A stretch of DNA of 64,000 nucleotides from NCBI RefSeq assembly GCF_001894945.1, contig NZ_BCXE01000014.1:108905-172904 (forward strand), written 5' to 3'. Below the pieces are notes generated by a model. The model was not told the origin of the DNA. It worked only from the letters and a program-made list of their open reading frames with translations, and searched no databases. This stretch comes from Rhodococcus ruber NBRC 15591 (GTDB taxonomy: Bacteria > Actinomycetota > Actinomycetes > Mycobacteriales > Mycobacteriaceae). This document shows positions 24,955 to 51,149 of this stretch, one piece after another. Made by a program: the position numbers and the translations under genes. The number at the start of each line of letters is the position of its first letter. Position 1 is the stretch's first letter.

Positions 24955-25644
24955 TCAGTACGCTCCGGGCAGGTGCAGCGCGTGCAGGTCCGCGACGGTC
25001 AGCCCGTCCAGACTCTCCCGGAACACCCGTCGCGGCGAGCCGGGCACCTCCGTCAACGACGGCACCACCAGCACCGTGCAGCCCGCGGCCTCCGCGGCCG
25101 CCGCCCCGGTGGGCGAGTCCTCCACCGCCAGACAGTGCACCGGATCGAGACCGAGCAGCTGTGCCGCCCGCAGGTACGGCGCCGGGTCCGGCTTGCCGGC
25201 CGGCACCTCGTCGCCGCACACCGAATGGTCGAAGTGCTCGCGCCCCAACGTGTCCAGGGCGAACTCGCACAACGCCCGGTCGGTGTTGGTCACCAGCGCG
25301 GACCCGAGCCCGGCGGCGCGCACCGCCCCCAGCGTCCGGCGCGCCCCGGGCCGCCACGGCAGGCCCTGCGCGAACAGCTCCCCCATGCGCCCGTACAGCC
25401 ACGCCTTCGCGGCGGCCAGGGCGTCGGGGTCCGGGACGAGATCGAGCGACTCGAACACCGTCCGCAACGCGAACGCGCTCGACGCCCCGATCGTCGCCCG
25501 CCGTGTCTCGTCCGTCATGGGCCCGCCCAGGCGCAGCGACAACTCCCGCATCCCGATGTCCCACAACGTTTCCGACTCGAGCAGCGTGCCGTCCATGTCC
25601 CACAGGACCGCTCGCAGCGTCGACGTGGCCACCGCGCTAGACAT
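24955..25644 (-). CDS. HAD-superfamily hydrolase
   Basis: A 229-residue phosphatase-like HAD protein: nucleophile motif [12 protein letters not shown] (Asp about residue 16), motif [11 protein letters not shown], motif [12 protein letters not shown] and motif [16 protein letters not shown]. The helical cap lies between motifs I and II. It resembles phosphoglycolate/beta-phosphoglucomutase-type enzymes; the substrate is unknown. Its start overlaps the metH 3' end by eight bases, so it is translated from the metH message. Confidence 0.87.
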
Positions 25645-28600: not shown

Positions 28601-29206
28601 GCCGGTCGTCTCCACCGTCACGTGGGTGACGATCGGAATGCGCCGACCGGACCGCTCCATCGCGCGGCGGCTACCGACGATCGCGGCCTTCGCCTGCAGC
28701 AGGTCCTGGCAGGTCTCGACGAGGATGGCGTCGGCGCCGCCGTCGAGCATGCCCAGCGCGGACTCGGTGTAGGCGTCACGCAACACGGCGAACGGGGCAT
28801 GACCGAGGGTGGGCAGCTTCGTGCCCGGACCCATCGAGCCCAGCACGAACCGTCCCATGCCGTCCGGGCCGGGACCCATCTCGTCGGCCACCTCCCGGGC
28901 CAGGCGGGCGCCGCGTTCGGACAGGTCCCGGATGCGATCGGCGATGTCGTAGTCGGCGAGGTTGGGCAGGTTGCAACCGAAGGTGTTGGTGGAAACGGCA
29001 TCCGCTCCCGCCTCGAAGTACGCCCGGTGGATTCCCCGGATGACGTCGGGCCGGGAGTCGTTGAGAATCTCGTTGCACCCCTCGAGGCCGCGGAAGTCGT
29101 CCAGACTCAGATCCGCGGCCTGCAACATCGTGCCCATCGCCCCGTCTCCCACGACAACGCGCTGCGAGAGCGCATCGAGCAAGGCAGAGTGCAATGGGGT
29201 GGACAT
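25637..29206 (-). CDS. metH: Cobalamin-dependent methionine synthase MetH
   Basis: A 1189-residue four-module enzyme that moves a methyl group from methyltetrahydrofolate to homocysteine through B12. Order: homocysteine-binding barrel (about 1-310; Zn ligands in GLNCATG and GGCCGTTP), pterin barrel (about 340-620; MIGERTNSNGSKAF, DLNVDYVGRDG), B12-binding cap and domain (about 650-880; KGDVHDIGKNLV with the cobalt-ligand His) and AdoMet reactivation domain (about 900-1189; RFLCIADFV, GYGACPNLEDR, LHPEQSTDAFVLHHPEAKY split here at ST). The ATG at 29206 gives MSTPLHSALL. Charged Lys/Ala linker at about 880. It matches Rv2124c, divergent from the PAC2 gene by 51 bases; no B12 riboswitch fits there. 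Confidence 0.97.
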   Translation of the reverse strand: MSTPLHSALLDALSQRVVVGDGAMGTMLQAADLSLDDFRGLEGCNEILNDSRPDVIRGIHRAYFEAGADAVSTNTFGCNLPNLADYDIADRIRDLSERGARLAREVADEMGPGPDGMGRFVLGSMGPGTKLPTLGHAPFAVLRDAYTESALGMLDGGADAILVETCQDLLQAKAAIVGSRRAMERSGRRIPIVTHVTVETTGTMLLGSEIGAALTALEPLGIDLIGLNCATGPEEMSEHLRHLSKHARLPVSVMPNAGLPVLGANGAEYPLTPEELAQALSGFVAEFGLALVGGCCGTTPEHIRQVAEAVRETERAERAPRPEPGVSSLYSAVPFEQDSSILMIGERTNSNGSKAFREAMLAGDHQKCLDIAKDQIRDGAHLLDLNVDYVGRDGAADMADLASRLATASTLPIMIDSTEPDVIRAGLEHLGGRCAVNSVNYEDGDGPGSRFERIMQHVVEHGAAVVALTIDEEGQARTAEHKVRIAERLIADLTGNWGLGEEDIVVDALTFPISTGQEEVRRDAIETIEAIREIKRRHPRVHFTLGISNVSFGLNPAARQVLNSVFLHECVQAGLDTAIVHASKILPMARIPDEQRETALDLVYDRRREGYDPLQKLMALFEGVSAASSRESRAQELAALPLFERLERRIVDGERNGLEADLDEAMQTTPPLAIINDTLLSGMKTVGELFGSGQMQLPFVLQSAEVMKAAVAYLEPHMESTGDEGKGRIVLATVKGDVHDIGKNLVDIILSNNGYEVVNLGIKQPIATILDAAVDKNADVIGMSGLLVKSTVVMKENLEELNHRGVAQRFPVLLGGAALTRSYVENDLAEIYDGEVSYARDAFEGLHLMDRVMAVKRGEGPAPDSPEAVAAKEKAAERKARHERSKRIAEKRKAAETPVEVPERSDVAADLEVPTPPFWGTRLVKGVALADYAGLIDERALFLGQWGLRGQRTGDGPTYEELVESEGRPRLRYWLDRLSTEGILAHAAVVYGYFPAVSEGDDVVVLAEPHPDAAERYRFTYPRQQRGRFLCIADFVRSRADARAKGQVDVLPFQLVTMGQPIADFANELFAANSYRDYLEVHGIGVQLTEALAEYWHRRVREELVLAGGHNLAEEDPADVAEFFKLGYRGARFAFGYGACPNLEDRIKLVELLEPDRIGVELSEELQLHPEQSTDAFVLHHPEAKYFNV

Positions 29207-29257
29207 GCGTTCCAGACTAGTGGGCGGCCCGTCCGGCTCTCGCCGTAGGCTGGACAG

Positions 29258-30151
29258 GTGAGTGCAAGCGAGTTCGCCGAGACCCCGGAACCGGACGTGC
29301 CGACCCTGCGTGACCCGGTGCTGGTCGCCGCATTCGAAGGGTGGAACGACGCCGGTGACGCGGCCAGCGGCGCCGTCGAACACCTCGAGCTCATCTGGGA
29401 CGCCGAACCGTTCGCCGAACTGGACTCCGAGGACTACTACGACTACCAGGTCAACCGCCCCATGGTGCGTCTCGTCGACGGCGTCACCCGCGAGATCGAA
29501 TGGCCCGCCACCCGCCTGTCGGTGTGCTCGCCGCCCGGCAGCACACGCGACGTCGTGCTGCTGCGCGGCATCGAACCCAACATGCGCTGGCGCAGCTTCT
29601 GCGACGCCATCATCGAACTCGCCGACGAGATCGGCGTGCACACCGTCGTCATCCTCGGTGCCCTGCTCGCCGACACCCCCCACACCCGGCCCGTCCCCGT
29701 GACCGGCACCGCCTACAGCACCGACGCCGCCAAACGCTTCAACCTGGAAGGCTCGCGGTACGAAGGGCCCACCGGCATCGCCGGGGTCCTGCAGGATGCG
29801 TGCGTCCGCGCCGGCGTGCCCGCCGTGTCGTTCTGGGCCGCCGTCCCCCACTACGTCTCGCAACCCCCGAACCCCAAGGCCACCGTCGCGCTGCTGCGCC
29901 GCGTCGAAGACGTCCTCGACCTCGAGGTCCCGCTCGGCGAACTGCCGGTCCTCGCCGAGGAATGGGAACAGACCGTCACCGCGATGACCGAGGACGACGA
30001 GGAGATCGCCGAATACGTCCGCGCCCTCGAGGAACGCGGCGACGCCGAATCGGACATCTCCGAGGTCATCGCCAAGATCGACGGCGACGCCCTCGCCGCC
30101 GAGTTCGAACGCTACCTGCGGCGACGAGGCCCGGGCGGCTTCACCCAGTGA
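29258..30151 (+). CDS. PAC2-family protein
   Basis: A 297-residue PAC2 protein, a family related to archaeal and eukaryotic proteasome assembly chaperones but of unsettled function in actinobacteria. Seen are VLVAAFEGWNDAGDAASGAVEHL near the N-terminus, TVVILGALLADTPHTRPVPVTGTA and YEGPTGIAGVLQDACVRAGVPAVSFWAAVPHYV (parts). It is the Rv2125 counterpart. Its occurrence in a genome that has a proteasome is suggestive, but it lies 15 kb away from the proteasome genes. GTG start; its stop overlaps the MFS gene start by four bases. Confidence 0.88.
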   Translation: MSASEFAETPEPDVPTLRDPVLVAAFEGWNDAGDAASGAVEHLELIWDAEPFAELDSEDYYDYQVNRPMVRLVDGVTREIEWPATRLSVCSPPGSTRDVVLLRGIEPNMRWRSFCDAIIELADEIGVHTVVILGALLADTPHTRPVPVTGTAYSTDAAKRFNLEGSRYEGPTGIAGVLQDACVRAGVPAVSFWAAVPHYVSQPPNPKATVALLRRVEDVLDLEVPLGELPVLAEEWEQTVTAMTEDDEEIAEYVRALEERGDAESDISEVIAKIDGDALAAEFERYLRRRGPGGFTQ

Positions 30152-31287
30152 GGGCGGCACGCGCCTCGCTGCCGCGTGCCGCCCTCTACGCCGGAGGATT
30201 CCTCGGACCCTTCGGCGGCGGTGTCGTGGCGTCGATGCTGCCGGAGATCGGCGCCTCCACCGGCGTGAGCGCCGGCGCGGCCGCGAGCACCCTCACCGCC
30301 TACCTCGGACCGTTCGCGCTGACCATGCTCGTCTCCGGCACCCTCGGGGCACGGTGGGGACGGGTCCGCACCGTCCGCACCGCGTACATCGTCTACGCCG
30401 TCGCGTCGCTGGCGTCCGCGCTCGCCCCCACCCTCGGGCTGCTGCTCGCATCCCGGGCCCTGCAGGGCGTCGCCAACGCCTTCACCACCCCGCTGCTGCT
30501 CGCGGCGCTCGCCGCGCTCGTCCCGCGGGCCCGCCTCGGCCGCGCCCTGGGCCTGTTCGGGGCGATGCAGGCCGCCGGACAGACCTCGGCCCCGCTCGTC
30601 GGGGGGCTGGCCGCCGAGGTCGACTGGCGGTGGGCGTTCGTCGTGATCGCCGCGGCGGCCGCCGTCCTCGCCGTGATCGGCCTGCCCGAGCAGCTGACCG
30701 TGCCCACCGGCGAGGCCCCGCCACGGCTGCGCGACGCGCTGCGCCCCGACGTGGTGCGCATCGGGGTCGTCGCCCTGCTCGGTTGGGGAGCCCTCGGCGG
30801 GTTGAACTTCCTGCTCGCCTTCCGCGCCGAGGACGTCTTCGGTCTGACCCCCACGCAACGGGGCCTGCTCCTGACCGGCTTCGGCGTCGCCGGCATCCTC
30901 ACCGCCCGCCGGGTCGGCACCCTCATCGACCGCATCGGCGCCCGTCGCACCGTGCTGCTCGGCGCTCTCGCCGGCGCCGGTCTCGTCGTCGTCGTCGGCA
31001 CCGCCGGACTGCTGTGGCTGGTCGCGGCCGCGTGGTTCGTCGCCGGCATCGCCTCCCAGTGTGTGCTCGTCGGGGTCAACGCCGCCGTCCTCGGCTCCTC
31101 GGGCCGCAACCGCGGCGGCGCCGTCTCGGTGGTGCAGGCGTTCCGGTTCTCCGGCGGCGCCGTCGCCCCGCTGGCACTGACCCCCCTCTACGCCGCCGCC
31201 CCGGTCGCGAGCTTCGTCGTGCCCGCCCTCGTGCTCGCCGTCGTCGCCCCGCTGGCGATGCCGCGCCGCGACTCCCCCTCCCGCTGA
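30148..31287 (+). CDS. MFS transporter
   Basis: A 379-residue major facilitator protein with about 12 hydrophobic segments. The first inter-helix loop carries GTLGARWGRVRTV, the MFS motif A form, and the second half shows GVAGILTARRVGTLIDRIGARRTV. The N-half resembles drug-efflux (DHA1) members: PEIGASTGVSAGAAASTLTAYL. Substrate unknown. The GTG overlaps the PAC2 stop, so they are coupled. It is not obviously a nitrite transporter although nirB follows 90 bases downstream. An inverted repeat CTCACC/GGTGAG at 31292-31311 after its stop may be a weak terminator. Confidence 0.82.
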   Translation: MRAARASLPRAALYAGGFLGPFGGGVVASMLPEIGASTGVSAGAAASTLTAYLGPFALTMLVSGTLGARWGRVRTVRTAYIVYAVASLASALAPTLGLLLASRALQGVANAFTTPLLLAALAALVPRARLGRALGLFGAMQAAGQTSAPLVGGLAAEVDWRWAFVVIAAAAAVLAVIGLPEQLTVPTGEAPPRLRDALRPDVVRIGVVALLGWGALGGLNFLLAFRAEDVFGLTPTQRGLLLTGFGVAGILTARRVGTLIDRIGARRTVLLGALAGAGLVVVVGTAGLLWLVAAAWFVAGIASQCVLVGVNAAVLGSSGRNRGGAVSVVQAFRFSGGAVAPLALTPLYAAAPVASFVVPALVLAVVAPLAMPRRDSPSR

Positions 31288-31328
31288 CATCCTCACCCCG
31301 GCGGCGGTGAGCACTTCCTGACCGCCGC

Positions 31329-31355
31329 GTAACCCCGGTGCCGCCGAGCCGTCAC
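31329..31355 (+). promoter_or_regulatory. Candidate GlnR half-sites before nirB
   Basis: GTAAC at 31329-31333 and GTCAC at 31351-31355 are spaced 22 bases start to start, which is the spacing between the two a-boxes of the actinobacterial GlnR site (GTnAC-n6-GAAAC-n6-GTnAC). The intervening b-box position reads GCCGC, a poor match, and the second b-box does not line up. nirBD is a known GlnR target in Streptomyces and mycobacteria, so the site is plausible but weak. Confidence 0.3.
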
Positions 31356-31377
31356 CGCCCCCGGCAACCCTGGACGC

Positions 31378-33885
31378 ATGACCCCAACCGCGTCGCACCA
31401 CCACGGCCCGCGTCGGCGCCTGCTCGTCGTCGGCAACGGCATGGCCGGCGCCCGCACCGTCGAGGAGATCCTCGCGCGCGGCGGCCGGGACCAGTTCGAC
31501 ATCACCATGATCGGCGACGAGCCGTACGGCAACTACAACCGGATCATGCTCTCCCACGTGCTGGCCGGGGAGGCCGACGTCGACGACGACCTCGTCCTCA
31601 ATCCGATGAGCTGGTACCGCGCGAACGGCGTGACCTTGTACGCCGGTGACCGCGCCACCCGTCTCGACCGCTTCGGCAAGACCGTCACGTGCGAGTCCGG
31701 CCGGCAGGTCCCCTACGACCTGCTCGTCGTCGCGACCGGATCGAACACCTTCTTCCCCAACATGGACGGGCTGCGTGAACCGGACGGACGGCTCGGTCGC
31801 GGGGTCTTCGGCTTCCGCACCCTCGCCGACACCAACGGCATGCTGCAGATGGCCGACGCCCACGACGACGTCCGCGCCGTGGTCGTCGGCGGCGGCCTGC
31901 TCGGCCTCGAAGCCGCCTACGGGCTGCGCACCCAGGGCCTGACCGTCACCGTGGTGCACTCGCCCACCCACCTGATGAACCAGCAGCTCGACGAACGCGG
32001 CGGCCGGGTACTGCGCACCGAAATCGAACGACTCGGCATCACCGTGCACACCGGCACCCGCACCACCGCCGTCCTGCGCGACGACCGCGGCGCCGTGACC
32101 GCCGTGCACTTCGCCGACGGCACCGTCGTCGACACCGACATGGTCGTGGTCACCGCCGGCATCCGTCCCAACACCGAATTCGCCCGCGCCGGCGGCCTCG
32201 TCGTCGAACGCGGCATCGTCGTCGACGACCAGATGCGCTGCGAGGAAGAATCGAGCATCTACGCCGTCGGCGAATGCGCCCAGCACCGCGGCGAGGTGTA
32301 CGGGCTCGTCGCACCCGTCTGGGAACAGGCCGTCGTCCTCGCCGAGCACCTCACCGGCACGAATCCCCACGCCGCGTACGAGGGCTCGCGCACCGGCACC
32401 GCCCTCAAGGTCGCCGGCATCGACGTCGTCGCGATGGGCATCAAGGGACCCGAACACGAAGACGACGAGTTCGTCCAGTTCTACGATCCGCGCAGCGGCA
32501 TCTACAAGAGCATCGTCGTGCGCGACGACCGGCTCGTCGGCGCCATGCTGCTCGGCGACGTGAGCAGAGCCACCACCCTGACCCAGGCCTTCGACGGCAG
32601 GATCGAGATCCCCGCGGACCGCGCGGCGCTGCTGTTCGACCTCGGCGACCCGCAGGGCGCCGACGTCGCCGCCGACCTGCCGGACGAAACCCAGGTGTGC
32701 AACTGCAACGGCGTCAGCAAGGGTGACATCGTCTCCTGCGTCCACGACGGCGCCGGCACCCTCGCGCAGGTGTGCGCCCGCACCCGCGCCGGGAAGGGCT
32801 GCGGCTCGTGCAAGAGCCTGGTCGCCGACATCGTCGCCTGCGCCGCCGGCGGCGCCCTCGCCGCGGACCCCGCCGCGAACTGGTACGTGCCGTGCATCCC
32901 GCTCGCCAAGCCGGACCTGATCGCCGAGATCCGTCGCCGCGACCTGCGTGCGGTCTCCCAGGTCTTCGCCGAACTCGCCCCCGGCGGCCGCGAGGAGGCC
33001 ACCGCCAAGATGCCGCTCGCGTCGCTGCTGCGCACCGTGTGGGGCCCGGACTGGGTCGACGAACGGGGTGCGCTGTTCATCAACGACCGCGTCCACGCCA
33101 ACATCCAGCGCGACGGCACCTTCTCCGTGGTGCCGCAGATGAAGGGCGGGGTCACCACCCCGGACCAGCTGCGGCGCATCGCCGACGTCGCCGACAAGTA
33201 CGACGTGCCCATGGTCAAGGTCACCGGCGGCCAGCGCATCGACCTGCTCGGCATCCGCAAGGAGGACCTGCCGAAGGTGTGGGCCGACCTGGACATGCCC
33301 TCCGGATACGCCTACGGAAAGAGCTTCCGCACCGTCAAGACCTGTGTCGGCAGCGATTTCTGCCGCTTCGGCCTCGGCGACTCGACCGCGCTCGGCATCG
33401 CCCTCGAGGAACGCTTCCAGGGACTCGAGACACCCGCCAAGCTGAAACTCGCCGTGGCCGGATGCCCCCGCAACTGCTCGGAAGCGCTGTGCAAGGACTT
33501 CGGCGTCGTCGCGGTCGGCGACGGACGCTGGGAGATCTACGTCGGCGGCGCCGCCGGCGCCCACATCCGCAAGGGTGACCTGCTCGCCGGCCCCGTGTCC
33601 GGCGACGACGTCCTGGCCCTGGCCGGCCGGTTCATCCAGTACTACCGCGAGAACGCCGCATGGCTCGAGCGAACCTACGACTTCGTGCCCCGCGTCGGCA
33701 TCGACCGGCTCCAGGCGCTGCTGGTCCGAGACGAGGAGGACATCGTGACCGGACTCGACGACCGCATCGGCGCCGCCGTCGCGGCATACCGGGACCCCTG
33801 GCTCGAACGGACAGCCCCGAAGTCGCCGGCACAGTTCCGTCCCGCGCTGCCGCTGCTCCCGCTGCCGCAGGTGCCGGTCCGATGA
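31378..33885 (+). CDS. nirB: Assimilatory nitrite reductase large subunit NirB
   Basis: An 835-residue enzyme that reduces nitrite to ammonium in the cytoplasm with NAD(P)H. N-terminal FAD/NAD(P) part: LLVVGNGMAGARTVEEIL, NRIMLSHVLAGE, VVVGGGLLGLEAAYGL and YAVGECAQHRG. A BFD-type 2Fe-2S segment follows (VCNCNGVSKGDI, GKGCGSCKSLV; about residues 440-480). The C-terminal siroheme/4Fe-4S reductase part has KTCVGSDFCRFGLGDST and AGCPRNCSEALCKDFGV, supplying four Cys. Full length for the family. The ATG at 31378 has no clear ribosome site and may be leaderless. Overlaps nirD by four bases. Confidence 0.96.
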   Translation: MTPTASHHHGPRRRLLVVGNGMAGARTVEEILARGGRDQFDITMIGDEPYGNYNRIMLSHVLAGEADVDDDLVLNPMSWYRANGVTLYAGDRATRLDRFGKTVTCESGRQVPYDLLVVATGSNTFFPNMDGLREPDGRLGRGVFGFRTLADTNGMLQMADAHDDVRAVVVGGGLLGLEAAYGLRTQGLTVTVVHSPTHLMNQQLDERGGRVLRTEIERLGITVHTGTRTTAVLRDDRGAVTAVHFADGTVVDTDMVVVTAGIRPNTEFARAGGLVVERGIVVDDQMRCEEESSIYAVGECAQHRGEVYGLVAPVWEQAVVLAEHLTGTNPHAAYEGSRTGTALKVAGIDVVAMGIKGPEHEDDEFVQFYDPRSGIYKSIVVRDDRLVGAMLLGDVSRATTLTQAFDGRIEIPADRAALLFDLGDPQGADVAADLPDETQVCNCNGVSKGDIVSCVHDGAGTLAQVCARTRAGKGCGSCKSLVADIVACAAGGALAADPAANWYVPCIPLAKPDLIAEIRRRDLRAVSQVFAELAPGGREEATAKMPLASLLRTVWGPDWVDERGALFINDRVHANIQRDGTFSVVPQMKGGVTTPDQLRRIADVADKYDVPMVKVTGGQRIDLLGIRKEDLPKVWADLDMPSGYAYGKSFRTVKTCVGSDFCRFGLGDSTALGIALEERFQGLETPAKLKLAVAGCPRNCSEALCKDFGVVAVGDGRWEIYVGGAAGAHIRKGDLLAGPVSGDDVLALAGRFIQYYRENAAWLERTYDFVPRVGIDRLQALLVRDEEDIVTGLDDRIGAAVAAYRDPWLERTAPKSPAQFRPALPLLPLPQVPVR

Positions 33886-34217
33886 CCACCACCGAAAGCC
33901 GGACCACCGCGCGGGAGTACGAGGTAGGCGCGCTGAGCGACCTGACCCCGGGCGAAGGCCGCACCTACACGGCGGGCGGACGGCAGATCGCCGTGTTCCT
34001 GCTCGGCGACGGCACCGTCCGGGCGCTGGACGCGGTGTGCCCACACCGGGGCGGACCGCTCGCCGACGGCCAGATCGACCCCGACCTCGTCGTGTGCCCC
34101 CTGCACCAGTACGCGTTCAGGTTCGACACCGGACGGTGCACCGCACCCGGCATCGACCCCGTCCACATCTACCCCGCGCGGGTGCACGACGGCCGGATCG
34201 TCGTCACCGTCGGGTGA
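33882..34217 (+). CDS. nirD: Nitrite reductase small subunit NirD
   Basis: A 111-residue Rieske-like small subunit. Here the Rieske ligands are kept: CPHRGG (about residue 53) and CPLHQY (about 72), so a 2Fe-2S cluster is possible. It is translationally coupled to nirB through ATGA. Its last 14 bases overlap the DUF4436 gene on the other strand. No nitrate reductase or NarK-type transporter is present in the window. Confidence 0.94.
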   Translation: MTTTESRTTAREYEVGALSDLTPGEGRTYTAGGRQIAVFLLGDGTVRALDAVCPHRGGPLADGQIDPDLVVCPLHQYAFRFDTGRCTAPGIDPVHIYPARVHDGRIVVTVG

Positions 34218-41199: not shown

Positions 41200-42714
41200 G
41201 TGAACGAAACGCAGCCGCCCGCCGGGCACACCGACCCGGGGCCCGGGGTGCAGCACGACCGGCTCCGGTTGTTCTCGTTCGCGACGGCCGAGAAGCGGGC
41301 CGAATACCTCTGGGTGCTGCGGGCTTTCGACCTCGCTCGGGCCAACTACGTCGTGCTGCTGCACGCCGCCGAGGTCGCGGCGATCCTCGAGCGGACCGGC
41401 TCGACGGATCCGGCGGCGGCACTGTCCGCCCAGGACGTGGCGCCCCTTCTCGAGCAGCTCCACACCTGGGGGGTGCTCGAACGCAGCTACGACGGCACCC
41501 GGGCGGCGTCGCTGGCCGAGTACCGCAACCGGCACTACGTGTATCAGTTCGGCCGGGCCGGTTACCACGCCTTCCGGGCGGTCGAGGAGGTGCTGAGCGC
41601 GCGCGGCGAGGACGCGTCGCTGTCGCGTCTCGCCCTGGCGGATCTGCTGGCCGACCTGACCGAGCTGGCGGCGGCGAACGACGCCGGGGACGGCGAGCTC
41701 GTCTACCGCAAACTGTCGCGGCTGGACACGACGTTGTCGGACATGGCCGAGCGGGCCGCCGGGTTCTACCTGATGCTCGGCGACCTGGTGCGCACCACCG
41801 AGGTCACACCCGAGTCGTTCCTGGCGCACAAGGATGCGGTGCTGGCCCACATGCGGGAGTTCAGCACCGACCTGGCCCGCTACGGTCCTAAACTCGCGGC
41901 GGCGCTGGCGCGGGTGCGGGAGACCGGGGTCGACCGCATGCTGGGGTTCGCCGCCGCGCACGACGAGCGGATGCTGTTGTCCGTGGCCGAGCGGCACGCG
42001 GACTGGCGGGCCCGGTGGCGTGGGCTCGAGCGGTGGTTCGTCGGCGCCGCCGACGTGCCCAGCGAGTCGGAGCGGCTCCGGGACGGCACGATGAGCGCGA
42101 TCGCGGCGGTGCTGGCGCTGCTGCGGCGATTGACGGAGACCCGCCGGGGCGGGGTCAGCCGCGAATCGCAGCTGCGGCACCTGGCCGCCTGGTTCGCGGC
42201 CGCGCCGGACGAGCAGTCGGCGCACGCGCTGTTCGACGCGGTGTTCGACCTGGGCCGCCCGCGGCACTTCTCCGTCGTGCATCCCGACCCGGAGACGGTC
42301 CCGGTGACGACGTCGTGGTGGGACGCGCCACCCGTGCCGATCGCCCGGACGCTGGCCGAGACCGGGCGCACCCCGTCGGCGGGAGCGCCGGCGCGGGTGC
42401 AGCGCAACGAATCCGGGGTCCGGCGGTTGCGGGAACGGCAGCTGGCGACGCAGCGGGCGCGGGCCGAGGCGGCACGCTCCCTCGCGGCGGGCGGCGTGGA
42501 CGAGCGGGAGTTGTCCGAGCCGGAGACCGAGGTGCTGTTGGGTCTGCTCGACGCGGCGCTGTCGGCGCGGGTTCCGGTCAGCGGCACCGTGCCGGGTGCG
42601 ACGGGCACCCAGAACGGGGTGCGGCTGACGCTGAGCCCGGCCCCGGAGGGCACGGTGGTCCGGACGGCGCGGGGCCGGCTGCATCTGGACGGGCTGCGGG
42701 TGAGCGTGCAGTGA
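41200..42714 (+). CDS. jetA: Wadjet type II subunit JetA (TIGR02677 family)
   Basis: 504 residues of the TIGR02677/DUF2397 family, the kleisin-like (MukF-like) part of type II Wadjet systems, which recognise and restrict circular plasmid DNA. The family start is clear: RLRLFSFATAEKRAEYLWVLRAF, followed by ALSAQDVAPLLEQLHTWGVL and YRKLSRLDTTLSDMAERAAGFYLMLGDL (parts). The C-terminus has RLRERQLATQRARAEAARSL. Full length for the family. GTG start at 41200 with no ribosome site. Its stop overlaps jetB (GTGA), so the two are coupled. Family names and the MukF analogy are established; activity here is inferred. Confidence 0.9.
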   Translation: MNETQPPAGHTDPGPGVQHDRLRLFSFATAEKRAEYLWVLRAFDLARANYVVLLHAAEVAAILERTGSTDPAAALSAQDVAPLLEQLHTWGVLERSYDGTRAASLAEYRNRHYVYQFGRAGYHAFRAVEEVLSARGEDASLSRLALADLLADLTELAAANDAGDGELVYRKLSRLDTTLSDMAERAAGFYLMLGDLVRTTEVTPESFLAHKDAVLAHMREFSTDLARYGPKLAAALARVRETGVDRMLGFAAAHDERMLLSVAERHADWRARWRGLERWFVGAADVPSESERLRDGTMSAIAAVLALLRRLTETRRGGVSRESQLRHLAAWFAAAPDEQSAHALFDAVFDLGRPRHFSVVHPDPETVPVTTSWWDAPPVPIARTLAETGRTPSAGAPARVQRNESGVRRLRERQLATQRARAEAARSLAAGGVDERELSEPETEVLLGLLDAALSARVPVSGTVPGATGTQNGVRLTLSPAPEGTVVRTARGRLHLDGLRVSVQ

Positions 42715-44075
42715 GCGCCCGGCGGATCTCGCCGCTCGACCGGGATTCCTACCAGCGGGCGGCACGGCTGATCCTCTCGCACCACCTGGTGACCACCCGA
42801 TACCCCGACCGGGCCGCGCTGCCGCTGCTGCGCCGGTGGGCGACGGAGCTGCGGGAGGACCTGCTCGAGTTGTTCGGGTACCGGCTCGAGGTGACCGAGA
42901 CGACCGCGCGGTTGTTCACCGTCGCCGACCGGCTCGATCCCGGGGGCGGGGCGCGCTCGGTGACCGACCGGCCCTTCGACCGTCGCCGGTACGCATATCT
43001 GGCGCTGGCGCTGGCGGCGCTGGGCCGCGCGGGTGGGCAGATCACCCTGTCGGAGCTGGCCGAGCAGGTCGCGTCCGAGGCGGGACAGGTGCCCGGGGTC
43101 GAACTGGCTCCCGAGCGGGCGACGGACCGGGACGCGTTCGTCGACGCGGTGGCGTGGCTGGCGGCGCGGGGGGCGATCGCGCTGGCGGACGGCGACGCCG
43201 GGGGCTGGGTGTCGGACCCGGAGCGAGGTGAGGCCCTCTACGACATCGACCGGCCCGTGGTGGCGGCGTTGTTCCGGCCGCCGCGGGCGCTGCAGCACCT
43301 GAATTCGGTGCGGGGCCTGCTCGCCGCCGGTGACCGCCGCGACGGGGACCGGAGCGTGGGCACCGCGGAGGTGGCGCGGCGGGTGCGCCGGGCGCTGGTG
43401 CAGCGGCCGGTGGTGTATGCCGAGGAACTCGACGACGAGGCGCGGCTGCAGCTGGCGCTGCCGCGCACGACCGCGGGAATCGAACTGTTGACGGGGCTGG
43501 TGGCCGAGCGCCGCGCGGAGGGCGTCGCGCTGGTGGACTCGTCGGGGCGGATGTCGGATCTGCGGTTTCCGGGGGTGGGGACGGTTCCGCAGGTGGCGTT
43601 GTTGCTGGCCGGGGAGATCTGCGCGCGGGTGTCGGAGCCGGGGTGCGAACCGGTGCGGTTGCCGCGGCCGGTGGACGCGGAGGCCGAGCTCGAGGCGGGA
43701 TTGGACGCCGCGATCCCGGCGGCCGGGGTGTTCGCGCCGCTGGCGGGTGACGCGGCTGCGGCGGATGCGCCCCCGGGGTCGCGGCCGGCGCCGGCGCATC
43801 CGCTGGTCGAGGACAGTTGGCTGGCGGAGACGGTGGCGCGGCTGGCCGACGAGTTCGGTCGTACCTTCGCCGCGCAGTGGCAGGCCGATCCGGCCGGTCT
43901 GCTGGAGGCGGCGGTGACGGTGTTGGAGCGGCAGCGGCTGGTGGCCCGGGTGCCCGGCGGGGTGCTGGCGTTGCCGGCGCTGGCCCGGTTCCGGGGGGTG
44001 GTGGTGACGGTGCGCGAACGCGATCCGCGTCTCGCGCTGGCCGGCGAGGATTCGAACGAAGCGGAGATGTCGTGA
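42711..44075 (+). CDS. jetB: Wadjet type II subunit JetB (TIGR02678 family)
   Basis: 454 residues of the TIGR02678/DUF2398 family, the MukE/KITE-like subunit. Recognisable: SYQRAARLILSHHLVTTRYPDR at the start, LPLLRRWATELREDLLELFGYRLEV, RPFDRRRYAYLALALAALGR and QITLSELAEQV; later YAEELDDEARLQLALPRT and the end ARFRGVVVTVRERDPRLAL. Intact length. Overlaps jetA and jetC by four bases each, so the three subunits are made from one coupled message. Confidence 0.9.
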   Translation: MSARRISPLDRDSYQRAARLILSHHLVTTRYPDRAALPLLRRWATELREDLLELFGYRLEVTETTARLFTVADRLDPGGGARSVTDRPFDRRRYAYLALALAALGRAGGQITLSELAEQVASEAGQVPGVELAPERATDRDAFVDAVAWLAARGAIALADGDAGGWVSDPERGEALYDIDRPVVAALFRPPRALQHLNSVRGLLAAGDRRDGDRSVGTAEVARRVRRALVQRPVVYAEELDDEARLQLALPRTTAGIELLTGLVAERRAEGVALVDSSGRMSDLRFPGVGTVPQVALLLAGEICARVSEPGCEPVRLPRPVDAEAELEAGLDAAIPAAGVFAPLAGDAAAADAPPGSRPAPAHPLVEDSWLAETVARLADEFGRTFAAQWQADPAGLLEAAVTVLERQRLVARVPGGVLALPALARFRGVVVTVRERDPRLALAGEDSNEAEMS

Positions 44076-47000
44076 GCAGTGCCCGTTTCCGGCCCACCCG
44101 GGCCGGGATCATCAACCTGTGGGACTACCGGGATCAGGAGTTCTCGTTCGCGGACGGTCGGCTGGTGCTGCGGGGGCCCAACGGGTCGGGCAAGACCAAG
44201 GCGCTCGAGGTGCTGTTCCCGTTCGTGTTCGACGGTCGCATCGAGCCGCGGCGGTTGAACCCGTTCGCCGGCGAGGAGCGCACGATGCGGTCCAACCTGC
44301 TGTATCAGGGGCAGGACAGTGCGTATTCGTATGTGTGGATGGAGTTCTGCCGCGGGCGCCGGGACGATCCGGAGGCGGTGACGGTGGGGGTCGGGATGCG
44401 CGCGGCGCGCGGCCACGACAAGGTCACGCGGTGGTATTTCGTCGTCGACGGCCGGGTCGGTGTGGACTTCTCGCTGCTGGATGCGGCCGATCGTCCGCTG
44501 ACGCGGCGGCAGCTGATCGAGGAGGTCGGTGCCGATGCGGTCACGGACCGGCCGGTGGACTACCGGGCGGCGATCGATGCGCGGTTGTTCGGGCTCGGGA
44601 TCGAGCGTTACGAGCAGCTGATCAACCTGATCCTGACGTTGCGCCGGCCGCAGCTGGCGAAGAATCTGGATCCGAAGGGGTTGTCGCAGGCGCTCACCGA
44701 CGGGTTGCGGCCGCTCGACGAGCAGCTGGTGCTCGAGGCGGCGCGGTCGTTCGCCGACATGGAGGAGGTGTCCCGCACACTGGAGTCGTTGGCGGCGGCC
44801 GACGACGCGGCGCAGAGGTTCGTCGCGGTGTATACGACCTACCTGGGTCAGCAGGCTCGCGCCGACGTGGACCGGCTGGGGGCCCGGCTGGCGGCGGTCG
44901 ACGCCGGCACGTCGGAGTGGACGGCGTCGGTGGCGGCGTTCGAGCGGGCCGGGGTGGAGCGGGCGCTGACGCTCGAGCGGCTCGAGGTCGCGGAGCGGGA
45001 CCTCGAGCAGACCCGCGCGACGCTCGAGGCGCTGCAGCGGTCGAGCGCGTACGAGGGTAAGCAGCAGCTCGACGATCTGGCGCAGGTGGTGGCGGATCTC
45101 GAGCGCACCACGGCCGGGCAGGCGGAGCAGGCGCAGCGCGCGCGGGTGGAGCTGGCGCAGCGTGAGGAGGAGGCGCGGCGGGCCGCGGAGGCGGCCGCGG
45201 ACGCGGCGTCCGCGGCACACCGCGCCGAGGACGCGCTCGCCGGGGCGGCGCGCGATGCGGGTGTCGAGTGGGCGGGGCCGGGCGGGGACACCGGCGGTGA
45301 CCAGATCGCGGCGACGGTCGCCGCGTGTGCGGAGGAGCGGGCCGCGGATGTGCGCGCGGTGCGGGCGGCGGTGGCGGCCGCGGAGGGGGCGTCGGCGGCG
45401 CGGGTGCGGGCGGAGGCCGCGGCCGAGCGCGCCCGGGCGCAGCGCGAGTCGGCCCGGGCGGCGGTGGACGCGGCGGACGCGGCGGTGGAGTCGGCCCGCG
45501 CGGAGGCGTCGACCCTGTTGCGGGAGTGGTGGACCGGTCATCGGGACGCATGGTCGGGGGTCGACGGGCCGGAGGAGCTGTTCGAGGCGCTGGCTGCGGC
45601 GATCGCGGCGGCCGGCGACGACGAGGCGGCGACACCGGCGGCGGTGCTGGCCGAGCGTACGGCGCCGGTGGTCGAGGAGTTGCGGTTCCGCGGCCGTGGC
45701 CTGGAGGCGGAGATCACGCACGGACGGGAGCGGATCGCGCTGTTGGAGGCCGAGCGGGACATGATCGAGGCCGAGCGCGACGACGCTCCCCCGGCGTTCC
45801 CCGCGTCGACTTCGGGGACCGGCACGTCGGGCGCGCCGCTGTGGCGGCTGGTGCGGTTCGCGGACGCGGTGAGCGCGGAGGCGGCCGCGGGCCTCGAGGC
45901 GGCGCTGGAGGCGGCGAACCTGTTGACGGGCTGGGTGTGCGGCGGGGCGGGAGACGTGCCCGCGGGGGCGGCGGTGCTGGTGCCGGCGCCGGCGGCGCAG
46001 CGGCCCGTGGGCCGGACGTTGGCCGACGTGCTGGTCGTGGAACCGGATACCGGGGTGCCGGCCGAGCGGGTGCGGGAGGTGCTGGCGTCGGTCGCGGTGC
46101 CGGACGTGGTGACGGACGAGACCGGCCCGGCGGTCGACGAGCGTGGCGGCTACCGCCAGGGGGTGCAGCTGGGTCGGTACACGAAGGCGCAGGCCGAGTA
46201 CATCGGGGCGACCGCGCGGGCCCGTCGCCGGCGCCTGCGATCGGCCGAACTCGACGCGGAGATCGCCGAGGTGCGGGCGCGGGTGGCGGACGCGGAGTCG
46301 GCGCGGGTGGCGGTCGGCGAACGGCTGGCGCGGCTGGATGGGGCCGCGTCGGCGGTGCCGCGCACCGGCGCGGTGCTTGCGGCGTTGCGGAAGGTCAGTG
46401 AGTGCGCGGGGGCGTTGCGCACCGCCGGGGAGGCGGCGGCCGCGGCGGACCGGGACCTCGATCAGGTGATCGCCGAATGCTCCGTGAAGGAGCGGCAGGT
46501 GCGGTCGGTGGCGGCCCGGCACCGGGCGCCGCACACGGTCCGCGAGCTCGAGCAGCTGGCGGCGGCGATCCGGTTCTTCGAGTCGCAGGGCCAGGTGTTG
46601 TTGCGTGCCCGGCGGGAGCGGGTGGCCGCGATCGAGCGGGCGCGGGAGGCGCAGGCGCGGCGCGACGACACCCGGGTGGCGGCCGGTGCGTCCGCCGAAC
46701 GGGCGGTCACGGCCGAGGAGTCGCTGCGGCAACAGCAGCAGCGGCTGGCGACACTGCGTGAGGCGTTGGGCGCCGACGCGCAGCAGATCGACGCGCAACT
46801 CGCACAGGCCCGCGAACGGATCGAGGCGGCGCGGACGGAGCAACGCGCCGCGCGCCGCGCGCACGACGAGGCGGTCGAACGGCTCGGGAAGGCGGAGGCG
46901 GCGCATGTCGCGGCGGAGCAGGCGCTGCGGTCGGCGTTGACCGAGACGCGGGCCGATGCGGCACAGCTGGCGCCGTATGCGCGGCCGGATGTGCTGGCGC

Positions 47001-48217
47001 TGCTGGGGATCTCGGAGGAGCTGCGGTGGCCGTCGGCGGCAGTGGAGTGGCCGGCGCCGGAGCAGGCTCGGCTCACCCGGGCGGCCGGGGACGTGCCTGC
47101 GGTGCCCGCGGCGGTGGGGGCGCTGTACGCGGCGCTGGCGGCGGCGACGGCGACGGTCAAGGGCGGGGACGGGGCCCGCAAGGCGGCCCGGTCGGCGTTG
47201 ACGGCGGCGTTGCAGGAGTTCGACGGTCAGCTCGCGGCGGCCGGTCAGGACTATCGGCTGCAGTGGGATGCGCCGGAGGGGTTGACGGTGGTGCGGGTGC
47301 AGGACGAGCAGGGGTTCTCGTCGGTGGCGGAGTTCGCGGTGCGGATCGGGGCGGCGCGGCGGGAGCAGGAGCTGCTGTTGACCGACGCGGAGCGGCGCAT
47401 CCTCGAGGATGCGCTGTTGGCGGGCTTGGCGCAGCAGATCCACGAGCGCACCGAGGACGCGCGGGAGCTGATCGCCCGGATGGGGACGGAGATGCGGCAA
47501 CGGCGCATGTCGTCGGGGACGACGGTGGGAGTGCGATGGGTGCTGGCCGATCATCTCGACGATCAGGCACGGGCGGTGTGCCGGCTGCTGGATCGGGAGG
47601 TGTCGGCGCTGGGTCCGGAGGAGCTGGCGCGGGTGCGGGCGCATTTCGCGGCGCGGATCCGGGCGGAGCGGGCGGCGCATCCGGAGCGGTCGTATCCGGA
47701 GATCCTGGCGACGACGCTGGACTACCGGCGGTGGCGGGTGTTCTCGTTCGGGTTGATCGGCGCGGACGGCACGGAGGATCGGTTGACGGTGGCGCGGCAT
47801 TCGGCGTTGTCGGGGGGTGAGCAGTCGGTGTCGCTGCATCTGCCGTTGTTCGCGGCGGCGCACGTGATGCTGGATTCGGCGGATCCGCAGGCGCCGCGGT
47901 TGCTGGCGTTGGACGAGGCGTTCGCCGGGGTGGACGACAACGGGCGGGCGGAGTTGCTGGGGTTGAGTGTGCAGTTCGATCTGGATCTGTTCATGACCGG
48001 CTACGACCTGTGGATCACCTATGCCGGGGTGCCGGCGTGCGCGCATTACGATCTGGCGCATTCGGTGGCCGAGCACACGGTCGGGGCGACGCTGTTGGTG
48101 TGGTCGGAGGGCGGGTTGCTCGCCGAGCACGACGGGTCGGATCTGGCGGCGGCGCTGGGGTCGCCGGGCACGCGGCGGGTGCCGGCGGTGGTGGAGGGGG
48201 CGCTCGAGTTCGCGTAG
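44072..48217 (+). CDS. jetC: Wadjet type II SMC-like ATPase JetC (TIGR02680 family)
   Basis: A 1381-residue SMC/MukB-like ATPase, the motor that extrudes DNA loops in Wadjet. The head is complete: Walker A RGPNGSGKTKALE (Lys 41), ABC signature ALSGGEQSVSLHLPLF (about 1246) and Walker B LLALDEAFAGVDDNGR (Asp/Glu about 1281-1282), followed by the D-loop. Two long Ala/Glu/Arg coiled-coil arms (about 260-560 and 730-1010) flank a hinge-like middle (about 570-700). Intact length. GTG overlaps jetB. The usual fourth gene jetD (TIGR02679, Toprim nuclease) does not follow: the next 454 bases hold no such gene. Confidence 0.92.
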   Translation: MSSARFRPTRAGIINLWDYRDQEFSFADGRLVLRGPNGSGKTKALEVLFPFVFDGRIEPRRLNPFAGEERTMRSNLLYQGQDSAYSYVWMEFCRGRRDDPEAVTVGVGMRAARGHDKVTRWYFVVDGRVGVDFSLLDAADRPLTRRQLIEEVGADAVTDRPVDYRAAIDARLFGLGIERYEQLINLILTLRRPQLAKNLDPKGLSQALTDGLRPLDEQLVLEAARSFADMEEVSRTLESLAAADDAAQRFVAVYTTYLGQQARADVDRLGARLAAVDAGTSEWTASVAAFERAGVERALTLERLEVAERDLEQTRATLEALQRSSAYEGKQQLDDLAQVVADLERTTAGQAEQAQRARVELAQREEEARRAAEAAADAASAAHRAEDALAGAARDAGVEWAGPGGDTGGDQIAATVAACAEERAADVRAVRAAVAAAEGASAARVRAEAAAERARAQRESARAAVDAADAAVESARAEASTLLREWWTGHRDAWSGVDGPEELFEALAAAIAAAGDDEAATPAAVLAERTAPVVEELRFRGRGLEAEITHGRERIALLEAERDMIEAERDDAPPAFPASTSGTGTSGAPLWRLVRFADAVSAEAAAGLEAALEAANLLTGWVCGGAGDVPAGAAVLVPAPAAQRPVGRTLADVLVVEPDTGVPAERVREVLASVAVPDVVTDETGPAVDERGGYRQGVQLGRYTKAQAEYIGATARARRRRLRSAELDAEIAEVRARVADAESARVAVGERLARLDGAASAVPRTGAVLAALRKVSECAGALRTAGEAAAAADRDLDQVIAECSVKERQVRSVAARHRAPHTVRELEQLAAAIRFFESQGQVLLRARRERVAAIERAREAQARRDDTRVAAGASAERAVTAEESLRQQQQRLATLREALGADAQQIDAQLAQARERIEAARTEQRAARRAHDEAVERLGKAEAAHVAAEQALRSALTETRADAAQLAPYARPDVLALLGISEELRWPSAAVEWPAPEQARLTRAAGDVPAVPAAVGALYAALAAATATVKGGDGARKAARSALTAALQEFDGQLAAAGQDYRLQWDAPEGLTVVRVQDEQGFSSVAEFAVRIGAARREQELLLTDAERRILEDALLAGLAQQIHERTEDARELIARMGTEMRQRRMSSGTTVGVRWVLADHLDDQARAVCRLLDREVSALGPEELARVRAHFAARIRAERAAHPERSYPEILATTLDYRRWRVFSFGLIGADGTEDRLTVARHSALSGGEQSVSLHLPLFAAAHVMLDSADPQAPRLLALDEAFAGVDDNGRAELLGLSVQFDLDLFMTGYDLWITYAGVPACAHYDLAHSVAEHTVGATLLVWSEGGLLAEHDGSDLAAALGSPGTRRVPAVVEGALEFA

Positions 48218-48671
48218 GGGTGCGGGCGCTCCCGGATCGATGCGGGAGGCGGCGCATCCCCCTCTGCTCCGATGCGCCGGACGGTGGGTTCCGCTTCGGG
48301 GCTGTGGAAGCAGGGTCGCCAAGTTCGGTTTTTCTTTAGGTTCCGCTGCGCTCGGATTCTCTCGGTGCCGGGGTGCGGCGTCGCCGACCGCAGGCCCCGC
48401 CGACGCCGAGTCAGGGCCCCCGACTACGGCATCGATCGGCACCACACCGGATTCGACGGATGCTGTCGCCACCCGGTCGTCGGCGCTGCGCGCTGCCGAA
48501 TCCACGGCAACGGGCAGACCGACGAGCTGCGGCGGAGCGTTGACCCCCGTCCGGTCCGATGCAAAGATGATCAACCACACGCGGTCGAACGCGTGTGCGA
48601 AAACTCAACAGGAAGGCCCGCCGCGACTGCCACCGCGACGGGCCGGATGTCCGACTGAAAAGGAGTCGAAC
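48218..48671. other. Non-coding region after jetC with hairpins
   Basis: 454 bases between jetC and the leader peptide. No JetD fragment or other gene could be recognised on either strand. A hairpin CTCCCG-n8-CGGGAG at 48229-48248, 11 bases after the jetC stop, may end the jet transcript. A T-rich patch (GGTTTTTCTTTAGG) lies near 48328. Two further stem-loops at 48576-48644 belong to the leader of the next gene and are listed separately. The 48300-48500 stretch shows nothing else. Confidence 0.5.
48576..48644 (+). promoter_or_regulatory. Two stem-loops in the leader of the HTH gene
   Basis: First stem: CACACGCG-GTCGAA-CGCGTGTG, eight perfect pairs (48576-48597). Second: GGCCCGCCGCG-ACTGCCAC-CGCGACGGGCC, eleven pairs with one mismatch (48615-48644). 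They stand 28 bases before the leader-peptide ATG. They could form a transcript leader that controls expression, or be binding sites for the HTH protein encoded just downstream. Function is not shown by the sequence. Confidence 0.55.
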
Positions 48672-48707
48672 ATGCGACAGCATACTCATGCGCAGGTGAC
48701 GCCATGA
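48672..48707 (+). CDS. 11-codon leader peptide coupled to the HTH gene
   Basis: ATG at 48672 is preceded by a strong ribosome site AAAAGGAG (six-base spacing) and encodes MRQHTHAQVTP, ending in a TGA that overlaps the ATG of the next gene (ATGA). The downstream ATG has no ribosome site of its own that is as good, so its translation probably depends on reinitiation after this peptide. The open frame alone could arise by chance; the ribosome site and the exact overlap support it. Confidence 0.5.
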   Translation: MRQHTHAQVTP

Positions 48708-49633
48708 GCATCGAAGCGATCATCTGGGCACTTGAACGCGCCGCGATCCCCTCCCCCACGCCGCCCGGCATGCCGTCGGCGCCGGCGCTGACCGTGGTCC
48801 TGATCAGCCTGGCGAATCACGCGTCCCGGCACGGCGAGGGCGCCTATCCATCCGTGCGCACCCTCGCCGGCTACGCCCGGATGAGCGAACGGCAGGTGCA
48901 ACGCTGCCTTGCCGCCCTCGTCCAGCTCGGTCTCATCTCCCGCGGCGACCAGCAGCGCGTCGCCGCCACCATCGCTCGCGAGGACCGTCGCCCCACCTGC
49001 TACAACCTGGCGATGCGGCGGGGCGACACATCGTCACCCCGCTCCCGCGCACGGGGCGACAACTGTGCCCCCGACGGGGTGACAGTCGAGCGGCCACGGG
49101 GTGACACGCATGTCACCCGAACCGTCCTCGAACCAAGAGATGAACCTGCTGCGTCGCGCCCGGCGCCTCCCGCCCGCGCCGCGAAGGCGGCGCAGCGGCC
49201 GCATCATCCGCAGATCGAGACACTGGCCGCGGCATGCCGCCGGGCCGGGCTCACCGCCCGGTTCGACACCCTCACCGCGGAGAAGGCCTCGATAATCACG
49301 CACTCGGTCGACGTCCACGGCATCGACGCGCTCGTGCGCGCGGCACTCGCACGCCATCGACCACACGATCCCGCCCGCTCGGCGGCGGCGTGGATCCCGA
49401 CCTGGCAGGAACTGCGCCCGCCGCGGCCGAAACGTCCACCCACCTGCGGCAACTGCGAGGAGTACGGCTGGCGACCTGACGACGAACTCGGCAGAGCAGT
49501 TCGCTGCCCGTGCCGCCGCGCCGGATTCGAGTGGCCGGAGGCACCCCCCGGAGTGCCGAGCGCACGCAAGCGGACCGAATCCTGCTCCGCCCACGACCGC
49601 ACTCACCGGACGTTGTGTGCGAGTAGTGCGTGA
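48704..49633 (+). CDS. HTH/zinc-ribbon replication-initiator-like protein
   Basis: A 309-residue protein with an HTH_36-type winged helix (YPSVRTLAGYARMSERQVQRCLAALVQLGLISRG, about 45-80, split here at MS) and an N-terminal AIIWALERA start typical of phage- and ICE-borne DNA-binding proteins. The middle is low-complexity. The end carries a treble-clef or ribbon-like cluster CGNCEEYGWRPDD and RCPCRR. Actinobacterial integrative elements and phages often encode such proteins as replication initiators or as regulators. It occupies the place where jetD would be expected. Together with the recombinase it suggests a mobile-element remnant. Confidence 0.72.
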   Translation: MSIEAIIWALERAAIPSPTPPGMPSAPALTVVLISLANHASRHGEGAYPSVRTLAGYARMSERQVQRCLAALVQLGLISRGDQQRVAATIAREDRRPTCYNLAMRRGDTSSPRSRARGDNCAPDGVTVERPRGDTHVTRTVLEPRDEPAASRPAPPARAAKAAQRPHHPQIETLAAACRRAGLTARFDTLTAEKASIITHSVDVHGIDALVRAALARHRPHDPARSAAAWIPTWQELRPPRPKRPPTCGNCEEYGWRPDDELGRAVRCPCRRAGFEWPEAPPGVPSARKRTESCSAHDRTHRTLCASSA

Positions 49634-49796
49634 CGCGGACGGAGTGTCTGTTCGCCGTGGTCGGTCCGATGGATCCACATTGCGCCGCGACGACGCCGCC
49701 GGCGGGCGATTCGTCCACGAGTCGCACCGCCAGGGGCCTTTTCGGCGAGTGCCGGTGGTGGCGGAGACCTACGGCCCGGCACCGGAGTTCCGCAGC

Positions 49797-49840
49797 GCAC
49801 ATCTCGTCGTTACGCCTCGGCGTGTCGCGACGAGATGTGC
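49797..49840. repeat. Perfect 13-bp inverted repeat with nested hairpin
   Basis: GCACATCTCGTCG and its exact reverse complement flank an 18-base loop that itself contains ACGCC-TC-GGCGT. It lies 16 bases after the mshC stop and at the right edge of the accessory region. It may be a terminator of mshC and the HTH gene, which converge here; its position also makes it a candidate relic of a recombination site. There is no U-tract on either side. The gap 49634-49856 holds nothing else. Confidence 0.55.
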
Positions 49841-49856
49841 ACACTCGAAATTCGCT

Positions 49857-51098
49857 CTATCGCAGCGGGATCCCGAGCAGGGCGTCGACGGCGTCCGCGA
49901 ACGCCGCGGGTGCCGAGGGGTCGTCGCCGCCGCGCTCGACCGCGAACGTCGCCCAGCTGTCCAGCGCGGCGAGGGCTTTCGGGGTGTCCAGGTCGTCGGC
50001 GAGGTGCTGACGCAGCCGAGCGATCGTGTCGTCGGCGGACTGGGCCGAGCCCAGGGCCGCGGCGTCGCGCCACCGGGCGAGGCGGGCCTGCGCGTCGGCG
50101 AGGACCTGATCGGTCCAGGCGCGGTCGGCGCGGTAGTGCCCGGCGAGCAGTCCGAGGCGGAGGGCGGCGGGGTCGACGCCCTGGCCCCGAAGCTTGGAGA
50201 CGAAGACGAGATTGCCGCGGGACTTGGACATCTTCTCACCGTCGAGGCCGATCATCCCGGTGTGCACGTAGTGCCGCGCGAAGCGGCGCTCGCCGGTGAC
50301 GGCCTCGGCGTGGGCGGCGGAGAACTCGTGGTGCGGGAAGATCAGGTCGCTGCCACCGCCCTGGACGTCGAAGCCGCTGCCGATCCGGTTGAGGGCGATG
50401 GCGGCGCATTCGATGTGCCAGCCGGGGCGGCCGTCGCCGAACGGGGACGGCCAGGCCGGTTCGCCGGGCCGCTGCGCGCGCCAGAGCAGCGCGTCGAGCG
50501 GGTCACGTTTGCCGGGGCGGTCGGGGTCGCCGCCGCGTTCGGCGAAGAAATGTTCCATGGTGGCGCGGTCGTAGCCGGACTCGTAGCCGAACTGCTCGGT
50601 GGCGTCGGCGCGGAAGTACACGTCGGGGTACTCGGCGTCGTCGACGATGTAGGCGGCGCCGGAGGCGACGAGTTTCTCGACCAGTTCGACGACTTCACCG
50701 ACGGATTCGACGGCGCCGATGTAGTCGCGGGGCGGCAGGACGCGCAGCGCCTCCATGTCCTCGCGGAACAGCGCGGTCTCGCGCATGCCGAGCACGATCC
50801 AGTCCTCGCCGTCGCGGGCGGCGCGTTCGAACAGCGGGTCGTCGACGTCGGTGACGTTCTGGACGTAGTGCACGTCGTGGCCCGCGTCGCGCCACACCCG
50901 ATGGACCAGGTCGAAGGCGAGGTAGGTGGCGGCGTGGCCGAGGTGGGTGGCGTCGTAGGGGGTGATGCCGCAGACGTACATCGTGGCCGTGCGACCCGGG
51001 GTGACGGGGCGGACCGCGCGGTCCGCGGTGTCGTAGAGCCGCAGCGGGGGGCCCTGGCCGGGGACGGACGGGAGCGCGATGTCGGACCATGACAGCAT
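49857..51098 (-). CDS. mshC: Mycothiol ligase MshC
   Basis: A 413-residue cysteinyl-tRNA-synthetase-like enzyme that joins cysteine to GlcN-inositol with ATP, the penultimate chemical step to mycothiol. Hallmarks: [20 protein letters not shown] (zinc Cys and HIGH-like motif), [29 protein letters not shown] (zinc ligands), [12 protein letters not shown] and [10 protein letters not shown] (KMSKS loop). It lacks the tRNA-anticodon domain, which distinguishes it from CysS. The ATG at 51098 (MLSWSDI) matches the family start; an upstream GTG adds two residues. It matches Rv2130c. It marks the return to the conserved gene order. Confidence 0.96.
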
Positions 51099-51149
51099 GC
51101 GCACGAGCCTAGTGGAGGGCGCAGAGCGCTCCGGACGGAGGCCGGGTCC

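Follow-up and report, generated by a model that had tools for sequence, protein, structure and literature searches.

Here we describe a type II Wadjet operon in a stretch of 64,000 nucleotides from Rhodococcus ruber NBRC 15591 (contig NZ_BCXE01000014.1, positions 108,905 to 172,904), which as a whole is referred to as the window. Three full-length genes lie on its plus strand, namely jetA (41200..42714, 504 amino acids, GTG start), jetB (42711..44075, 454 amino acids) and jetC (44072..48217, 1381 amino acids), and at both the jetA/jetB and the jetB/jetC junction the genes overlap by 4 nucleotides. All three products scored above the cut-off of the type II Wadjet models. JetA, whose query sequence started 4 residues past the start codon, matched DUF2397 (E 4.8e-145), TIGR02677 (E 4.1e-76) and JetA2 (E 2.4e-188), JetB matched DUF2398 (E 2.9e-66), TIGR02678 (E 3.3e-38) and JetB2 (E 5.5e-206), and JetC, the structural maintenance of chromosomes (SMC) ATPase, matched TIGR02680 (E 1.6e-215) and JetC2 (E 0). 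Type I JetC models gave at most 32.4 bits with JetC and its best matches were type II Jet models, in a comparison that covered Jet models and not MukB or MksB. The ATPase motifs are found on the plus strand at 44174..44197 (Walker A, GPNGSGKT, residue offset 34), 47807..47824 (ABC signature, LSGGEQ, residue offset 1245) and 47897..47923 (Walker B, RLLALDEAF, residue offset 1275). An earlier annotation made from the letters of the window only (the sequence-only reading) had assigned the operon to type II Wadjet and had described overlapping, full-length genes with an intact JetC ATPase; protein families, overlaps and motifs bear out both statements. According to the literature, JetA is the kleisin and JetB the KITE subunit. 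The protein families and ATPase motifs of a type II Wadjet system are present, but the Toprim nuclease JetD (TIGR02679/PF09664) is found neither next to jetC nor in the genome. One operon of SMC, kleisin and KITE genes without a nuclease gene is also the gene content of a nuclease-free condensin of the MksBEF kind.

The absence of JetD had likewise been noted in the sequence-only reading, and it holds at the locus, where no detectable remnant is left either, and for type II JetD in the entire genome. The genome-wide profile search proposed there returned no match to TIGR02679 or to PF09664 in the genome (5.33 Mb, 56 contigs, 100% complete); in these searches none of the 14 controls was matched, yet TIGR02679 does match 13 of 101 relatives and 57 of 401 genomes of the family. 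A further profile, built from five JetDs of the same locus type, recovered all 4 positive genomes with 612-656 bits; three of these genomes had supplied its members and one (G606) is independent. In the window's genome (G000) its only match reached 13.7 bits (E 0.067). Among 15 jetD-less Rhodococcus genomes, 13 gave nothing and the others were G000 and G005 (E 0.30); since nothing convincing appeared in these 15 genomes, a divergent JetD missed by the general model is not supported. When 17 JetDs were compared by tblastn with the 2.5 kb after the window's jetC, nothing was found, not even a remnant. The site occupied by jetD in Rhodococcoides relatives corresponds here to 48218..49856, which by tblastn and locus comparison has no JetD homology and holds a gene for an HTH_36 protein.

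Comparison with related strains, also proposed in the sequence-only reading, revealed an intact jetABCD at the orthologous site of R. fascians (Rhodococcoides fascians, locus L113), with jetD between jetC and an mshC-like gene. The matching block of the window consists of HAD-like, metH-like, MFS-like and nirB/nirD-like genes, followed by jetABC and then the mshC-like gene, where mshC, metH, nirB/nirD and MFS, as well as PAC2, fadD and thiolase below, are names that we presume to apply to these neighbours. The left-hand part (25637..34217), which is syntenic with L113, comprises the metH-like (25637-30160, minus strand), MFS-like (30226-31287, plus strand) and nirB/nirD-like genes (31378-34217, plus strand), and the mshC-like gene on the right (49857..51104, minus strand) adjoins jetABC or jetABCD in many relatives according to the locus comparison. 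At this site only jetABC is present in most Rhodococcus loci and in all Nocardia loci of this type for which the sequence extends far enough. Loci with and without jetD at the same site are paired by the window and L113, by L061 and L113, and by Rhodococcus sp. SMB37 (with jetD) and Rhodococcus sp. HNM0563 (without). The last pair is the closest natural one: the DNA of jetABC is 89% identical, and homology stops 18 bases past jetC and picks up again in a gene beyond jetD. The mshC gene downstream is kept in 16 jetD-less loci from seven lineages and one upstream neighbour in 28 loci from six lineages. The sequence-only reading had counted related strains with jetD at this exact place, together with a decaying jetABC here, as evidence against itself; jetD does occur there in Rhodococcoides fascians, but jetABC is not decaying.

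Furthermore, the occurrence of JetA and JetD was surveyed, with only genomes that gave a match being counted in the sample of 401 family genomes. JetA was detected in 162 of these (159 over the cut-off), and 56 of the 57 genomes with TIGR02679 also have JetA; JetD as defined by TIGR02679 is absent from 103 of the 159. The 101 relatives included 41 with JetA. In the window's family JetD was found in 3 of 31 genomes with JetA, as compared to 9 of 10 in other families of the order (Fisher p 6e-6). By genus code, for which we infer the genus names, JetD accompanies JetA in 2 of 18 genomes of g1, the window's genus (one fragmentary), none of 14 in g10, none of 6 in g22, 2 of 26 in g24, 29 of 37 in g6 and 18 of 43 in g23 (Nocardia). 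All 18 genomes of the genus sample hold some JetA and 16 hold a full-size JetA of the main type, with JetD in only one of these 16. The jetD-less locus is not an isolated defect and is common to most sampled JetA genomes of the family.

Among 121 loci searched by tblastn after jetC, 19 had JetD (including L109, whose jetD had been overlooked by the gene caller), 83 with enough sequence, the window included, had no remnant, and 17 were too short; L151 and L169 were left out, and the 83 negatives include 5 genomes represented twice as well as 11 loci that belong to a second paralog or to other types. A sample of 296 genomes from the class gave 71 JetA loci after fragmentary JetA rows had been dropped (mostly query 300-482). 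JetD lay within 11 kb of JetA in 50 of them and was missing from 21, some cut by contig ends. We opened 17 of the 21 (L217 in the window's family) and detected no JetD in them by tblastn or profile; jetA, jetB and a full-size jetC were present in 14, of which 13 (not L209) have enough sequence after jetC, and the others comprise L205 with jetA alone and L215 and L219, which are cut by contig ends. The four loci outside these 17 belong to G000, G022 and G052, already examined, and to the unopened G275. JetA occurred in 18 of 72,556 plasmid records, none from Rhodococcus or Nocardia.

Several other type II loci were encountered in this survey. L071-L080 of the genus Rhodococcus are a second, diverged JetABC without JetD, whose JetA is 26-35% identical to that of the window and which recurs at a site between fadD-like and thiolase-like genes; a JetA search did not find it in the window's genome. 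In nine of ten cases, ISQGE replaces LSGGE and LLDDAF replaces LLDEAF in its JetC (ISRGE and VLDDVF in L080), and some genomes have a broken or split jetA; judging from these motifs, it is possibly a slow- or non-hydrolysing SMC paralog. JetD-less JetABC from other families of the class fall within L203-L219, with the JetC variants GHNGSGKT/MSGGE or GTNGSGKS in some of them and common neighbours of 224 and 204 amino acids in L210 and L216. In L180, L181 and L183, from genomes with the Nocardia code, the coordinates place a JetD gene directly before jetA, a D-A order that represents a different type II layout.

The history of jetD was examined in trees. A tree of 86 distinct JetABC sets contained 68 rows without and 18 with jetD, and enlargement by 14 gave 100 rows, 23 of them with jetD; these trees were made with FastTree only, and L070 and L065 have long branches. 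Three of the 68 jetD-less rows (L062, L070, L099) have too little sequence past jetC, the genomes of L062 and L070 being without TIGR02679. All 31 Nocardia rows lack jetD. The JetDs of this locus fall together in a single clade (17 of 54 rows, Shimodaira-Hasegawa-like approximate likelihood ratio support 96), which disfavours acquisition of jetD from outside the family. If jetD was ancestral and never regained, 17 losses are required, or 13-16 when branches under 50-99 support are collapsed. Presumably, jetD was ancestral at the locus and was lost, probably many times.

Selection on the operon was assessed by pairwise Nei-Gojobori ratios of nonsynonymous to synonymous substitutions (dN/dS, omega), from pairs that are partly non-independent. 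Median values for jetA, jetB and jetC were 0.066, 0.139 and 0.104 in 21 pairs without jetD and 0.063, 0.152 and 0.079 in 9 pairs with jetD; the mixed pair gave 0.064, 0.185 and 0.157. Without jetD, jetABC is under purifying selection, as in relatives that have it. Walker A, signature and D-loop are invariant wherever the sequence is present, Walker B is RLLALDEAF or, in 8 rows, RLLGLDEAF, and the ATPase motifs of JetC are alike in both classes. The IFDR motif of type I JetB, looked for by eye, was not evident in either class. These data bear on the possibility, raised in the sequence-only reading, that the system is disarmed and jetABC a decaying relic on its way to loss. The missing jetD would fit such decay, and so would the jetC omega of 0.32 between the window and Rhodococcus aetherivorans DSM 44752, the nearest named relative found (JetA 94% identical), which is the highest of the 31 pairs. 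However, the changes in this JetC pair fall on 122 of 849 sites in the coiled coil and hinge and on only 14 of 531 in the ATPase heads, and the omega values resemble those of jetD-bearing relatives. Almost all of the main-type loci checked have open, full-length genes, exceptions being jetB of L137, jetC of L159 (in two pieces) and rows at contig ends, and 30 of the 31 jetD-less Nocardia rows are unbroken. Because jetABC remains full-length and subject to purifying selection in relatives that also lack jetD, we regard a disarmed remnant as unlikely.

The genome also encodes a complete type I operon, JetA1-B1-C1-D1 (503, 201, 1099 and 378 amino acids), on another contig (G000:C1, about 429.4-435.9 kb, corresponding to L240:10865-17407), where the PF09983 matches lie, and a canonical Smc (997 bits). 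Going by these genes, the cell already has a condensin and what appears to be an armed type I Wadjet, and the type II core is an SMC complex in addition to both. A jetD linked to another jetABC elsewhere in the genome had been named in the sequence-only reading as evidence against it; taken literally this operon is such a case, but it is of type I, and no significant similarity links its JetD to that of the R. fascians type II locus (BLASTP E 0.54). The operon leaves room for a nuclease supplied in trans, in which case type II JetABC would still restrict plasmids by recruiting the type I JetD or some other nuclease encoded elsewhere. This dissimilarity, the type I JetD having a JetABC of its own, and the lack of a conserved companion gene beside jetABC make such recruitment unlikely.

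No replacement gene was found within 4 kb of jetABC in 68 jetD-less loci from 15 lineages, and no family located mainly downstream on the strand of jetABC is common to more than 3 of the 15. Families present in at least 3 lineages were dismissed, either as ordinary enzymes or as syntenic flanks (the mshC side on the opposite strand; PAC2-like and MFS-like genes on the jetABC strand, upstream). The nirD-like gene of the window is separated from jetA by about 7 kb that include a phage integrase. The phage-type integrase (36543-37613, minus strand), a coiled-coil protein with an RPRKY motif (39903-41063, plus strand) and the HTH_36 protein with a weak RepC-like match (48704-49633, plus strand) are shared, among the loci compared, by the window and R. 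aetherivorans only, and look like insertions into an old jetABC site. The coiled-coil gene was considered as a fourth subunit and discarded, being found besides the window only in R. aetherivorans (BLAST, default filtering).

Overall, a complete type II jetABC operon without jetD is present in the window, and it likely encodes a nuclease-free SMC motor, which would load on DNA and extrude loops without cutting. The JetABC core would still assemble and extrude DNA loops, and its selected role would be to organise the chromosome or large replicons, as proposed for Pseudomonas MksBEF, or to restrain plasmids without cleavage; the separate type I JetABCD would account for any cutting of plasmids in this cell. 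Since the motor is intact although its cutter is missing, and most sampled family genomes with JetA lack the cutter too, it likely has a different task, for instance to fold or tame DNA. Of the three options in the sequence-only reading (nuclease in trans, work without cutting, disarmed system), we favour a motor working without its own nuclease as the best fit. More tentatively, type II Wadjet may well have been converted repeatedly to a nuclease-free, DNA-organising SMC complex, its core being selected as a second condensin beside Smc and jetD being an optional, disposable effector.

Besides the high jetC omega mentioned above, several observations weigh against this interpretation. Few JetABC columns separate the two classes and there is no excess (5 conserved only with jetD, 10 only without it), which gives no sign that the core has adapted to working without a nuclease; residues marking the loss of JetD docking were considered and dropped for the same reason. 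A type I JetD is encoded in the same genome, and the 18 of 43 Nocardia JetA genomes with some JetD could be served by a nuclease in trans; 15 of these 18 were placed in the tree, and their JetDs branch outside this locus's JetD clade. Unordered parsimony needs only 7 changes. In addition, the JetD tree joins G001 with G058 (93) and g6 with G442/G471 (94), whereas the JetABC tree joins g6 with G058 (95), the JetD branches of G001 and G058 being long. As these inner splits disagree, the loss count rests on the assumption of no regain, and exchange or regain of jetD between relatives may have occurred.

The locus can be compared with three known systems. The type II JetABCD of Neobacillus vireti (nvJET) shares the A-B-C gene order and intact ATPase motifs, and PDB 9qe0, which together with 9qe1 presumably represents the nvJET complex, is a sequence relative of JetC (E 6e-67) and JetA (E 2.5e-14) of the window; JetB had no Jet match in PDB at E 1. 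The difference is that the window's locus and genome, like most sampled JetA genomes of the family, lack type II JetD. N. vireti JetABC was unable to bypass the obstacles tested, and with JetD it cleaves circular DNA (PMC12647877). The nuclease-free, MukBEF-like MksBEF of Pseudomonas aeruginosa, for which nuclease loss with retention of the motor has been proposed in print, is likewise composed of SMC, kleisin and KITE. In contrast, the window's proteins belong to type II families, and versions with and without jetD still coexist at one orthologous site. Type I Wadjet (MksBEFG) of Corynebacterium glutamicum is also SMC-based, and a complete type I operon is present in the window's genome too, but that system carries a nuclease and differs from the window's jetABC in locus and protein families. 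A motor that extrudes and compacts small circular DNA without cutting, lowers copy number or expression and thereby still serves defence would be in keeping with the extrusion of circular DNA by Wadjet motors prior to cleavage (PMC12647877) and with the raised plasmid copy number after deletion of the SMC subunit in C. glutamicum, whose system has the nuclease (PMC10123090). However, a defence gene would be less expected to occur at a shared chromosomal site and, as some form of JetA, in every genome of the genus sample, and we consider this form of defence improbable.

By titles and abstract openings, no report of a jetD-less type II Wadjet was found in the open-access literature. A three-protein 'Wadjet_II' is tabulated for R. 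erythropolis, without comment in the passage concerned (PMC12915292), and the PADLOC definition of Wadjet requires all four genes (PMC9252829). It is still open whether chromosome condensins such as MukBEF/MksBEF arose from defence complexes by loss of the nuclease (PMC10586767). In the family analysed here, a single orthologous site holds jetABC with jetD in some members and without it in others, and even sister strains differ in this respect; the transition from defence to condensin is therefore directly testable. Our results also bear on defence surveys, in which Wadjet is said to be encoded by 42% of Actinobacteria (PMC10482375): if the proposed interpretation is true, a large part of what is counted as 'Wadjet' in Actinomycetota would not be plasmid-cutting defence.

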